This document shows positions 33,205 through 57,791 of a stretch of 57,850 nt of DNA, one piece after another; within the stretch, counting starts at the first letter, position 1, and each line of letters starts with the position of its first letter. A model generated the notes under the pieces. The model did not search any database. It was not told where the DNA came from and saw only the letters and a program-made list of their open reading frames with translations. Origin of the DNA: Bacillota bacterium (GTDB lineage: Bacteria > Bacillota > Clostridia > Peptostreptococcales > Anaerovoracaceae); assembly GCA_017557505.1 (NCBI GenBank), contig JAFYYP010000018.1:1-57850 (forward strand). Reading direction: 5' to 3'. The position numbers were made by a program, and so were the translations under genes.

Positions 33205-34245
33205 TTACTTCAGGAAGATGCGTTTTCCGCCCTGATATCCGCGGATGACGCCGATCTTCTGCGCGCTCAGGACCTGACCCTGCAGCATCGCAAGGCAGTG
33301 CTCCGCGTCTTCTTCCGCCACGGCTGCCAGCAGGCCGCCGGACGTCTGCGGGTCGAACAGGCAGTCGCAGACTGCTACAGGCACGTCGCCGGGATCGACC
33401 CGGCCTTCGCAGTGGTCGCGGTTGCGGTACATGCCTTCCGCCAGAACGCCCATGCGGGCGAATTTCAGGGCGGAGGGGAGGATGTCGATCTCTTTCGTGT
33501 CCACGAGCGCTTCGCAGTCCGTGCCGTCCACCATCTCGAACAGGTGGCCCATCAGGCCGAACCCCGTCACGTCGGTGCACGCGTGCACTTCGTGTTGCAC
33601 AAATACGTCGCGGGCCTTTTTATTCAGTTCCGTCATGATGCGGATCATGGCGGCCCGGTCTTCTTCCGAAACGAGGTCAGCCTTTGCGGCCGTCGTCAGA
33701 ATGCCTGTGCCCAGAGGCTTCGTGAGGATCAGCACGTCGCCCGGCTTCGCGCCGCAATTACGGTAGAACTTCTCCGGATGGACGTAGCCTGTGACGGAAA
33801 GGCCGTACTTGGGCTCCTCGTCGAAGATCGTGTGGCCGCCCGCCACGACGGCGCCGGCTTCGTAGACTTTGTCATAGCCGCCCCGCAGGATCTCCCGGAT
33901 GACTTCCTTGGGGAATCCTTTGGGCACGCCCATGACGTTCAGGCACGTCTTCGGCTCGCCGCCCATGGCGTAGACGTCGGACAGGGCGTTGGCCGCAGCC
34001 ACCTGGCCGAACGTGTATGGGTCGTCGACGACGGGAGGGAAGAAATCCACCGTCTGCACGAGCGCCAGTTCGTCGTTCACTTTATAGACGCAGGCATCGT
34101 CGCTCCTGTCGAAACCGACAAGAAGGGAAGGATCGCTCTGCATGGAAATGCCGTCTAAAACTTCAGCAAGAACTCCTGCTCCAAGCTTCGCTCCTCACCC
34201 GGCGCAGCCTGCAAGGTTCGTCAGTTTTATATCCTTTGCAGTCAT
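33205..34245 (-). CDS. selD: selenide, water dikinase SelD, itself a selenoprotein (TGA-encoded Sec17)
   Basis: Read through one in-frame TGA (34197-34195) the gene gives 346 residues, the normal SelD length. The N-terminus becomes KLTNLAGCAG-U-GAKLGAGVLAEVL, the family pattern in which Sec or Cys precedes the ATP-binding lysine. The rest has VQTVDFFPPVVDDPYTFG, AGGHTIFDEEPKYGLSVTG and DVTGFGLMGH. It makes selenophosphate for Sec and selenouridine synthesis. The start at 34245 has AAAGGAGGTGATCC, an almost perfect anti-16S site, whereas the ATG at 34143, after the TGA, lacks a site and the catalytic region. A SECIS-like hairpin follows the TGA. The host must therefore carry selA, selB and selC elsewhere. 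Confidence 0.93.
34158..34188 (-). promoter_or_regulatory. bacterial SECIS-like hairpin in selD
   Basis: Counting from the base after the UGA, AAGCUU (7-12) pairs with AAGUUU (32-37) and GCAGG (16-20) with CUUGC (25-29), leaving apical loop AGUU at 21-24. The loop contains the guanosine and U expected by SelB and sits about 20 bases from the UGA, within the usual range. Confidence 0.7.
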
Positions 34246-34297
34246 GAGCGGATCACCTCCTTTCCGTACGTTTTCCAGTGTTTTTCACAAAAACAAG

Positions 34298-36034: not shown

Positions 36035-37192
36035 ATGTTTGTATATTTAGACAACAGCGCTACCACCCGTGTGCGGCCTGAGGTCGCGCAAATCATGGCA
36101 AAGACAATGACGGAGGATTTTGGAAATCCTTCGTCTTTGCATAGAATGGGCGTGAACGCGGAGAAGATCCTGAAGAAGGCAAGACAGCAGGTAGCCGGCG
36201 CGCTGAACGCGTCCGCCGAGGAAGTTTTCTTTACGTCCTGCGGCACGGAAAGTGACGCAACCGTGCTGCGCGGCACCTGGGAAAGCCGCAAAAAGCAAGG
36301 AAAGCGCATCATAACCACCGCCGTGGAGCATCCGGCCATCCTGCGCAGCTGCGAAGCGCTGGCGAGAGAGGGTGCGGACATAATCTATCTTCCGGTCAAC
36401 CGCAACTGCACGTTCGACATGGACGCTTTCAAGGCCGCATTGACAGCGGACACCATCCTCGTTTCCGTCATGCACGTGAACAACGAGGCCGGTTCGGTCA
36501 TGCCGCTGGCGGACATCCGCCGCGAGATCGACAAGGTGAACAGGGGCATTCTGTTCCATACGGATGCGGTGCAGTCTTTCGAGAAACTGGACACGGACGT
36601 CCACAAACTCGGCGTCGACATGCTCAGCCTGTCGGGCCACAAGATCCACGCCTGCAAGGGTATCGGCGCGCTGTACGTGAAGAAGGGCCTGCACATCCAG
36701 CCGTTCCTGCTGGGCGGCGGCCAGGAGAGCGGCTTCCGCTCTGGCACCGAAGCGCTGCCCGCGATCGCGGGACTGGGCGAAGCGGTGCGGCTTGCGGAGC
36801 AAAGCAAAACTGCACGCATCGCGCACATCGCGGACGTCAGGAACTGCCTGAAGCAGCTGCTTCTCGACAACGTCGAAGACATCACGGTGAACTCGCCGGA
36901 AGACGGCGTCTGCTCCGTGCTGAACGTTTCGTTCCTCGGCTGCCGCGGCGAAGTGCTGCTGCACACGCTCGAACAGGACGAGATCTACGTTTCGACCGGA
37001 TCCGCCTGCTCGTCCCACAAGAAGGGCAGCCACGTGCTGACGGCCATGGGTCTGTCGGACGAACAGATCGAAGGGGCCATCCGCTTCTCGTTCTGCGAGG
37101 ACAACACGACGGAACAGATGGCGTTCGTCTGTGAAAAGCTGAAGGCAGCTGTCGAAAGCCAGAGACGGCTGAGAAAGGCATTCAAGAGATAA
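36035..37192 (+). CDS. cysteine desulfurase (NifS/IscS-like) paired with ThiI
   Basis: 385 residues. YLDNSATTRVRPEV at the N-terminus, FTSCGTESD, the PLP lysine in LSGHKIHACKG and the active-site cysteine loop STGSACSSHKKGSHVL are all present. It moves sulfur from cysteine to an acceptor as persulfide. Its TAA overlaps the ATG of thiI by one base, so the acceptor is most likely ThiI for 4-thiouridine and thiamine thiazole, as for NifZ-ThiI pairs of other Firmicutes. As the window also encodes SelD, a role in supplying selenium is possible but unproved. Confidence 0.93.
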   Translation: MFVYLDNSATTRVRPEVAQIMAKTMTEDFGNPSSLHRMGVNAEKILKKARQQVAGALNASAEEVFFTSCGTESDATVLRGTWESRKKQGKRIITTAVEHPAILRSCEALAREGADIIYLPVNRNCTFDMDAFKAALTADTILVSVMHVNNEAGSVMPLADIRREIDKVNRGILFHTDAVQSFEKLDTDVHKLGVDMLSLSGHKIHACKGIGALYVKKGLHIQPFLLGGGQESGFRSGTEALPAIAGLGEAVRLAEQSKTARIAHIADVRNCLKQLLLDNVEDITVNSPEDGVCSVLNVSFLGCRGEVLLHTLEQDEIYVSTGSACSSHKKGSHVLTAMGLSDEQIEGAIRFSFCEDNTTEQMAFVCEKLKAAVESQRRLRKAFKR

Positions 37193-56637: not shown

Positions 56638-56713
56638 GGGCGTATAGCTCAGCTGGGAGAGCATCTGCCTTACAAGCAGAGGGTCGTAGGTTCGAGCCCT
56701 GCTACGCCCACCA
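56638..56713 (+). tRNA. tRNA-Val (anticodon TAC)
   Basis: Acceptor GGGCGTA/TACGCCC, anticodon loop TTACAA, T arm GGTTCGAGCCC, encoded CCA. First of twelve tandem tRNAs. Confidence 0.95.
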
Positions 56714-56722
56714 AACTTTTGC

Positions 56723-56799
56723 GGCCCGGTAGTTCAGTTGGTTAGAATGCCAGCCTGTCACGCTGGAGGTCACCGGTTCGAGCCCGGTTCGGGTCGCCA
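56723..56799 (+). tRNA. tRNA-Asp (anticodon GTC)
   Basis: Acceptor starts GGCCCGG, paired with two G-T pairs to TCGGGTC. Anticodon arm CCAGC-CTGTCAC-GCTGG, encoded CCA. Confidence 0.94.
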
Positions 56800-56834
56800 T
56801 TTTTTTTAACAATTAAATAGCATAAGTGCGTTTT

Positions 56835-56909
56835 GCTGGCGTGGCTCAATGGCAGAGCAGCTGATTTGTAATCAGCAGGTTGTTGGTTCGACTCCGATCG
56901 CCAGCTCCA
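56835..56909 (+). tRNA. tRNA-Thr (anticodon TGT)
   Basis: Acceptor GCTGGCG/CGCCAGC, anticodon arm CTGAT-TTGTAA-TCAG, T discriminator, encoded CCA. Confidence 0.95.
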
Positions 56910-56917
56910 TATTCTGT

Positions 56918-57002
56918 GGAGGGATTCCCGAGTGGCCAAAGGGGGCGGACTGTAAATCCGTTAGCTGAGCTTTCGATGGTTCAAATCCATCTCCCTCCAC
57001 CA
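56918..57002 (+). tRNA. tRNA-Tyr (anticodon GTA)
   Basis: Long variable arm of class II type, acceptor GGAGGGA/TCCCTCC, anticodon arm CGGA-CTGTAAA-TCCG, encoded CCA; 85 bases. Confidence 0.95.
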
Positions 57003-57009
57003 TTTTTAT

Positions 57010-57084
57010 GCGGAAGTGGCTCAGGGGTAGAGCATCGCCTTGCCAAGGCGAGGGTCGCGAGTTCGAATCTCGTCTTCCGCTCCA
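57010..57084 (+). tRNA. tRNA-Gly (anticodon GCC)
   Basis: Acceptor GCGGAAG/CTTCCGC, anticodon arm TCGCC-TTGCCAA-GGCGA, encoded CCA. Confidence 0.95.
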
Positions 57085-57087
57085 TCT

Positions 57088-57161
57088 GCGGATGTAGTTC
57101 AATGGTAGAACTTCAGCCTTCCAAGCTGATAGCGTGAGTTCGATTCTCATCATCCGCTCCA
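57088..57161 (+). tRNA. tRNA-Gly (anticodon TCC)
   Basis: Acceptor GCGGATG/CATCCGC, anticodon arm CAGC-CTTCCAA-GCTG, encoded CCA. Second glycine isoacceptor, 3 bases after the first. Confidence 0.95.
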
Positions 57162-57193
57162 GCAAGAGCCGGTCTACGCAGCCGGCATATCGT

Positions 57194-57270
57194 GGGCTCA
57201 TAGCTCAGTTGGATAGAGCAACGGTCTTCTAAACCGTGTGTCGGAGGTTCGAATCCCCCTGGGCTCACCA
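57194..57270 (+). tRNA. tRNA-Arg (anticodon TCT)
   Basis: Acceptor GGGCTCA pairs with TGGGCTC through G-T pairs. Anticodon arm ACGGT-CTTCTAA-ACCGT, encoded CCA. Reads AGA/AGG. Confidence 0.94.
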
Positions 57271-57277
57271 ATTTCAG

Positions 57278-57352
57278 TGGGGTATAGCCAAGCGGTAAGG
57301 CAACGGACTTTGACTCCGTCATGCGTAGGTTCAAATCCTGCTACCCCAGCCA
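57278..57352 (+). tRNA. tRNA-Gln (anticodon TTG)
   Basis: Acceptor TGGGGTA/TACCCCA with the unusual first T typical of tRNA-Gln, anticodon arm ACGGA-CTTTGAC-TCCGT, encoded CCA. Confidence 0.95.
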
Positions 57353-57356
57353 TTGC

Positions 57357-57432
57357 GACCCATTAGCTCAGGTGGCAGAGCACTTGACTTTTAATCAAGG
57401 TGTCCCGAGTTCGAGTCTCGGATGGGTCACCA
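57357..57432 (+). tRNA. tRNA-Lys (anticodon TTT)
   Basis: Acceptor GACCCAT/ATGGGTC, anticodon arm CTTGA-CTTTTAA-TCAAG, encoded CCA. Confidence 0.95.
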
Positions 57433-57456
57433 AAAAAGTTTTAGGACCTACGATAC

Positions 57457-57545
57457 GGAGAGGTGTCCGAGCGGTTTAAGGAGCTAGTCTTGAAAACTAG
57501 TGATGCAGCAATGCACCGTGGGTTCGAATCCCACTCTCTCCGCCA
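57457..57545 (+). tRNA. tRNA-Ser (anticodon TGA)
   Basis: Class II with long variable arm, acceptor beginning GGAGAGG, anticodon arm CTAGT-CTTGAAA-ACTAG, G discriminator, encoded CCA. It reads serine UCA codons; it is not tRNA-Sec, whose anticodon is TCA. Confidence 0.94.
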
Positions 57546-57580
57546 TAAGCCTTCCGCATCCCACAGATCATTTTCAGCAC

Positions 57581-57673
57581 GGAGAAGTACTCAAGTGGCT
57601 GAAGAGGACGGTTTGCTAAACCGTTAGGGTTCGATTACGGGCCGCATGGGTTCAAATCCCATCTTCTCCGCCA
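57581..57673 (+). tRNA. tRNA-Ser (anticodon GCT)
   Basis: Class II, 93 bases, acceptor GGAGAAG/CTTCTCC, anticodon arm ACGGT-TTGCTAA-ACCGT, G discriminator, encoded CCA. Confidence 0.94.
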
Positions 57674-57715
57674 TATTTTGTGGCTAGTGTGACATACACC
57701 TGAAGGGACCGATAC

Positions 57716-57791
57716 AGGGGTATAGCTCAGTTGGTAGAGCAGCGGTCTCCAAAACCGCGTGCCGAGGGTTCAAGTCCTTCTGCCCCTGCCA
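57716..57791 (+). tRNA. tRNA-Trp (anticodon CCA)
   Basis: Acceptor AGGGGTA/TGCCCCT with one T-G pair, anticodon arm GCGGT-CTCCAAA-ACCGC, G discriminator, encoded CCA. Last of the cluster. Confidence 0.95.

Follow-up and report, generated by a model that had tools for sequence, protein, structure and literature searches.

Selenophosphate synthetase (SelD/SPS) is well described as a selenoprotein, and its Sec-containing form appears as a standard family in the sections of PMC4561486, PMC1794560 and PMC13188914 that we drew on. In the part of PMC1794560 used here, FdhA and SelD were the most widespread selenoproteins of the set analysed, and one of its tables names GrdA and GrdB as selenoproteins of Clostridia. 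The section of PMC13188914 used here treats the steps of the selenophosphate and Sec pathway as established knowledge and also gives rules for the bacterial SECIS (bSECIS) element: a loop of 3-9 nt, an upper stem of 4-16 bp, a G in loop positions 1-2, a distance of 16-37 nt from the UGA and a free energy <= -7.5 kcal/mol. We compared with these systems a selD gene on a 57,850-nt stretch of DNA, the window, from contig JAFYYP010000018.1 of the Bacillota bacterium assembly GCA_017557505.1. This gene almost certainly encodes SelD as a typical bacterial selenoprotein whose residue 17 is Sec. Its features, all on the minus strand, are as follows.

33205..34245, minus strand: selD, selenide water dikinase, 346 residues with predicted Sec at residue 17 and stop codon TAA; matches TIGR00476
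34245-34243, minus strand: ATG start of selD, read from the sequence
34250..34263, minus strand: ribosome-binding site AAAGGAGGTGATCC upstream of the true selD start, read from the sequence
34195..34197, minus strand: in-frame TGA at codon 17, read as selenocysteine; the column is TGA, TGC or TGT in 150 loci
34165..34180, minus strand: apical stem-loop of the putative bacterial SECIS, AGCAGG-AGUU-CUUGCU; read, folded and compared, and fitting the published rules
34157..34189, minus strand: possible lower stem, 34189-34183 / 34163-34157; folds in the window sequence, weakly supported
34141..34143, minus strand: internal ATG (Met35), the start chosen by a plain ORF finder, from the ORF listing

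The selD frame comprises 346 residues and the TAA, with the TGA at codon 17 as its sole interruption. A preliminary description of this DNA had stated that upstream of the ATG at 34143 the frame stays open but for one TGA (34197-34195), up to an ATG at 34245 behind a near-perfect ribosome-binding sequence, and this turned out to be correct to the base, with AAAGGAGGTGATCC found at 34263-34250; we take this sequence to be complementary to the 3' end of 16S rRNA. In a family profile search the 346-residue reading scored 402.4 bits against TIGR00476 (cut-off 125) and 345.9 bits against PRK00943.1 (cut-off 299), placing it above the curated cut-off for the SelD family. As had been foreseen for automatic annotation, a plain ORF finder returned 33205-34143 only (312 aa), losing the first 34 residues of SelD including the active-site Sec. 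This N-terminal extension had been taken for the missing SelD N-terminus, and indeed it aligns with E. coli SelD (structure 3u0o) and is conserved across loci.

For the codon-17 column we assembled 150 SelD loci, consisting of 80 named loci, 30 matches including the window's copy and 40 stretches of further matches. The named loci were the best 80 of 580 found and were selected with query residues 35-346 only, so that the selection was blind to the Sec site. Among these 150 loci, which are partly non-independent (L020 and L050, for example, are identical over the tree columns), the window's own included, the column reads TGA in 66, TGC in 78 and TGT in 6 and nothing else. With Cys in 84/150 loci, the in-frame UGA lies on a column held by Cys in homologues, as is expected of a selenoprotein. 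U17 and K20 of the window SelD align with C17 and K20 of 3u0o, and Cys or Sec stands three residues before Lys20 in 150/150 loci, in agreement with the earlier statement that SelD has Cys or Sec just before this lysine. We take Cys/Sec17 and Lys20 to be the catalytic residues of SelD.

The same description had placed an apical AGUU loop 20 bases after the UGA on two stacked stems; conservation in the close clade was seen for the apical stem and is not clear for the lower one. The apical stem has 6 bp (34180-34175 / 34170-34165) and closes the loop AGUU (34174-34171), with G at loop position 2 followed by U at position 3 and a TGA-to-loop distance of 20 nt, values within the constraints given in the section of PMC13188914 used here. 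The 48-nt stretch with the hairpin folded at -12.2 kcal/mol, an energy that includes the weakly supported lower stem. Single-sequence folding was not beyond chance when compared with shuffles (z -0.30 to -0.64 in four of five stretches, +0.76 in the 71-nt stretch), and an Rfam search at the hairpin gave no family at gathering score and, when E values up to 10 were allowed, nothing beyond chance-level matches. Assessment of the bacterial SECIS relied on conservation and on the published rules.

Conservation was visible at the codon level. In the window and its divergent Sec relatives L022, L023 and L024 (66-67% identical to the window protein), 37/39 same-residue codon pairs of residues 22-28 were identical, compared with 512/1115 for residues 33-340 of the same four sequences, and none of the 288 other 7-codon windows with enough comparable codons reached this value. 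When all seven clade Sec sequences were used, 116/141 codon pairs of residues 22-28 were identical, equalled by 5/297 windows, and in a 15-codon test of the seven sequences 51/293 windows did as well. In a set of 30 loci taken from the 80 near Cys ones, codon conservation was poor at this place, with 1113/2627 identical pairs in residues 22-28 vs 48566/95707 elsewhere, and with 277/301 windows at or above residues 22-28. A dip in third-position G+C was seen in the window selD (4/15 in residues 18-32 vs 250/308 in residues 33-340); the other six clade Sec sequences had 5 to 9 of 15 in residues 18-32, and the 80 Cys loci showed no dip (0.781 vs 0.777).

The count of pair changes was confined to the close clade (seven sequences and L113), because the apical columns do not fit the Sec-SelD of the wider order, where they form 3.23/6 pairs in 56 distinct sequences. 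In the eight Sec sequences apical pairs form in 47/48 cells, one pair being G-U throughout and the sole failing cell being an A-G pair in L113. Two apical pairs have changed on both sides, one from A-U in five to G-C in two sequences and the second with A-U in seven and C-G in L113. On average 5.88 of 6 apical pairs form in Sec sequences vs 4.74 in Cys sequences, and the lower stem forms 4.75 of 7 pairs in the eight Sec sequences vs 3.87 in 78 distinct Cys sequences. The mean fold of the same stretch is stronger in the Cys homologues (-15.59 vs -13.15 kcal/mol). The loop G is uninformative when taken alone, since it opens a Val codon in the window and 59/78 Cys sequences have G there as well. 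It is the comparison with relatives, and not the single-sequence fold, that lifts the putative hairpin above chance, and the codon and pair patterns point to selection at the RNA level for the apical part only.

Since a Sec codon would call for decoding genes, we looked for selA, selB and selC in the same genome (G000), as had been proposed, and all three were found. Profile searches gave 572.7 bits for selA (cut-off 267.9) and 355.3 bits for selB (cut-off 242.25), and tRNA-Sec (selC) scored 69.3 bits at a gathering score of 47 and was called tRNA-SeC with anticodon tca by ARAGORN. The three genes, which together make up the Sec machinery as we defined it, lie side by side on contig C45. Downstream of selB follow, in order, grdX, a GrdG/GrdE-like subunit (670.9 bits, below the GrdG cut-off of 780), grdB, thioredoxin reductase, thioredoxin, grdA and a component C protein. 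With 690.1 bits against TIGR01917 (cut-off 602.2) and a TGA at codon 347, GrdB is above the cut-off for glycine reductase selenoprotein B and does not reach the cut-offs of the models for sarcosine and betaine; grdA (275.6 bits, cut-off 130) has its TGA at codon 44. Because grdB and grdA also carry an in-frame TGA, SelD is probably not the sole selenoprotein, and selenium use would be tied at least to glycine reductase, as judged from family names. The selD gene lies on another contig, C55, outside the selA-selC-selB/grd cluster. The ORF finder stopped GrdB at its TGA (346/433 residues kept) and began GrdA after its TGA (104/153 residues kept); with SelD, GrdB and GrdA all cut, the organism's selenium use could therefore be missed.

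Component C is represented by a single 837-residue ORF that scores above cut-off with the component C beta model as well as the component C alpha model and may be a fusion. The arrangement of selA-selC-selB followed directly by a glycine reductase cluster with two TGA-containing genes was observed in G000:C45, L048:4634-11191 and L169:251-5946. As to further ways of using selenophosphate, for yqeB (TIGR03309) and ybbB (TIGR03167) there was no match in G000, which is ~87% complete, so that these absences are soft; the formate dehydrogenase model matched G000 in three frames, all below cut-off, with no stops within the matched stretches. In the window itself, two genes away from selD and beyond RNase Y, the opposite strand carries a gene for a NifS-like cysteine desulfurase (36035-37192, plus strand); its best match reached 414.3 bits, short of the 530.75 that this model requires. 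It is a possible selenium supplier, this closeness being the only tie. The window also holds a cluster of 12 tRNA genes (56638-57791, plus strand), and a tRNA-Ser(tga) at 57457, which passed narrowly as tRNA-Sec (47.9 vs a gathering score of 47 bits), was taken as a false positive.

In 119 related genomes, selA was present in 61/63 genomes with Sec-SelD, 2/8 with Cys-SelD (G064 and G090) and 1/48 without SelD (G004); the association of selA with the SelD state gave a Fisher's p of 5e-6 with relatedness ignored. Here, SelD presence meant a match at E < 1e-60, weaker matches being taken as other superfamily enzymes, and for selA, partial matches (e.g. G044) were scored as presence and four matches of less than 22 bits (G007, G019, G037 and G057) as absence. 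Profile search found Sec-SelD yet no selA and no selB above cut-off in G006 (89% complete) and G116 (79%). The Sec-SelD of G006 (L023) has the AGUU apical hairpin, and the absence of selA and selB there most likely reflects incompleteness at 89%, or else an early loss. G007, of the same genus as the window, has Cys-SelD (L025), a best selA match of 18.8 bits and yqeB, which we assign to the trait of selenium-dependent molybdenum hydroxylases; a separate Sec-to-Cys switch with changed selenium use is likely in this genome. Upstream of the Cys-selD in L054, L070 and L072 lie stretches resembling YqeC, with the P-loop GGGGKTTLLRTLG in two of them and GSGGKTTLLRTLG in L070, which would fit a role of selD in a different selenium trait in these three. 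Of the named relatives, the nearest two are Bacillota MAGs from the abomasum of goat and water deer. With Sec- and Cys-SelD in close relatives and selA mostly tracking them, the clade offers a usable small case for loss of the Sec trait.

It could be asked if the TGA was inherited or if the window's clade regained Sec from an ancestor with Cys-SelD, which would make the TGA a gain. In a quick tree of 118 of the 150 loci, from which near-copies of the same state had been dropped at >= 84% identity, the window's 9-row clade (8 Sec, 1 Cys) is nested in a group of 66 rows, the remainder of which, apart from L113, is Cys, and this nesting, together with 77 Cys among the best 80 of 580 named loci, speaks for a regain. 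Against it, trees in which 49 or 56 Cys rows, groups named after the tree was seen, were held together had log-likelihoods 47.94 (p-AU 0.879) and 27.05 (p-AU 0.752) above the free tree, respectively. Because the constrained trees fit better than the free tree, one Sec-to-Cys loss on the sister branch is enough, and a regain was rejected as unneeded. The SelD of the wider order is moreover mostly Sec, and a Cys-to-Sec event in SelD was not observed according to the part of PMC1794560 used here. We therefore regard a regain as improbable. Its fuller form, in which the window's genus and nearest kin regained Sec from an Oscillospiraceae-type Cys ancestor, the AGUU hairpin evolved anew and at least one member, G007, later went back to Cys, is quite improbable; if true, it would represent a Cys-to-Sec gain in a family where the consulted part of PMC1794560 saw none.

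An inherited Sec codon also has to be weighed against a real stop, with selD either decayed or mis-sequenced or giving a shorter protein from the ATG at 34143. The 312-residue ORF returned from that ATG would fit a real stop, which is nevertheless extremely improbable as the same codon is TGA in 66/150 loci and Cys in the other 84, the residues encoded ahead of the TGA are conserved and can be aligned with E. coli SelD, and a strong ribosome-binding site stands at 34263-34250. An altered genetic code with TGA generally read as another amino acid, for which no supporting evidence was found, has a negligible probability, given that 13/44 hand-picked likely genes of the window (most without family search) end in TGA and that a tRNA-Sec with anticodon tca is present.

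From the presence of selA, selB and selC and the position of the TGA on the Cys/Sec column, the earlier proposal that the organism decodes UGA as Sec and makes its selenophosphate with a Sec enzyme is supported. Translation would start at 34245, the hairpin just 3' of the UGA would recruit SelB-GTP-Sec-tRNA(Sec), and Sec would be inserted in place of termination to give a 346-residue enzyme with Sec17 near Lys20. Its predicted activity is the conversion of selenide and ATP to selenophosphate, which SelA would use to form Sec-tRNA(Sec), and the Sec formed would go into SelD and into, at the least, GrdA and GrdB, whose genes lie next to selA-selC-selB.

The window selD is an ordinary, well-supported example from an uncultured bacterium, and its novelty is low. 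E. coli SelD (3u0o) can be aligned over residues 2-335, position 17 and Lys20 coinciding, and differs in having Cys17 and Cys19 where the window SelD has Sec17 and Ala19. Sec-containing SelD/SPS shares with the window gene the family, the Sec position and a hairpin after the UGA, and no substantive difference was seen; the active-site stretch is G-U-G-A-K in the window and G-U-A-A-K in 12/18 more distant Sec-SelD with the site printed (L029 ends after U-A-A). The window hairpin agrees with the bSECIS consensus model in its 4-nt loop, 6-bp upper stem, G-U at loop positions 2-3 and 20-nt spacing. In Clostridia with Sec-decoding and glycine reductase genes, selA, selC and selB are likewise followed by a grd cluster in which the genes for GrdB and GrdA contain a TGA, and the difference in the window's genome is that its selD lies apart, on C55.
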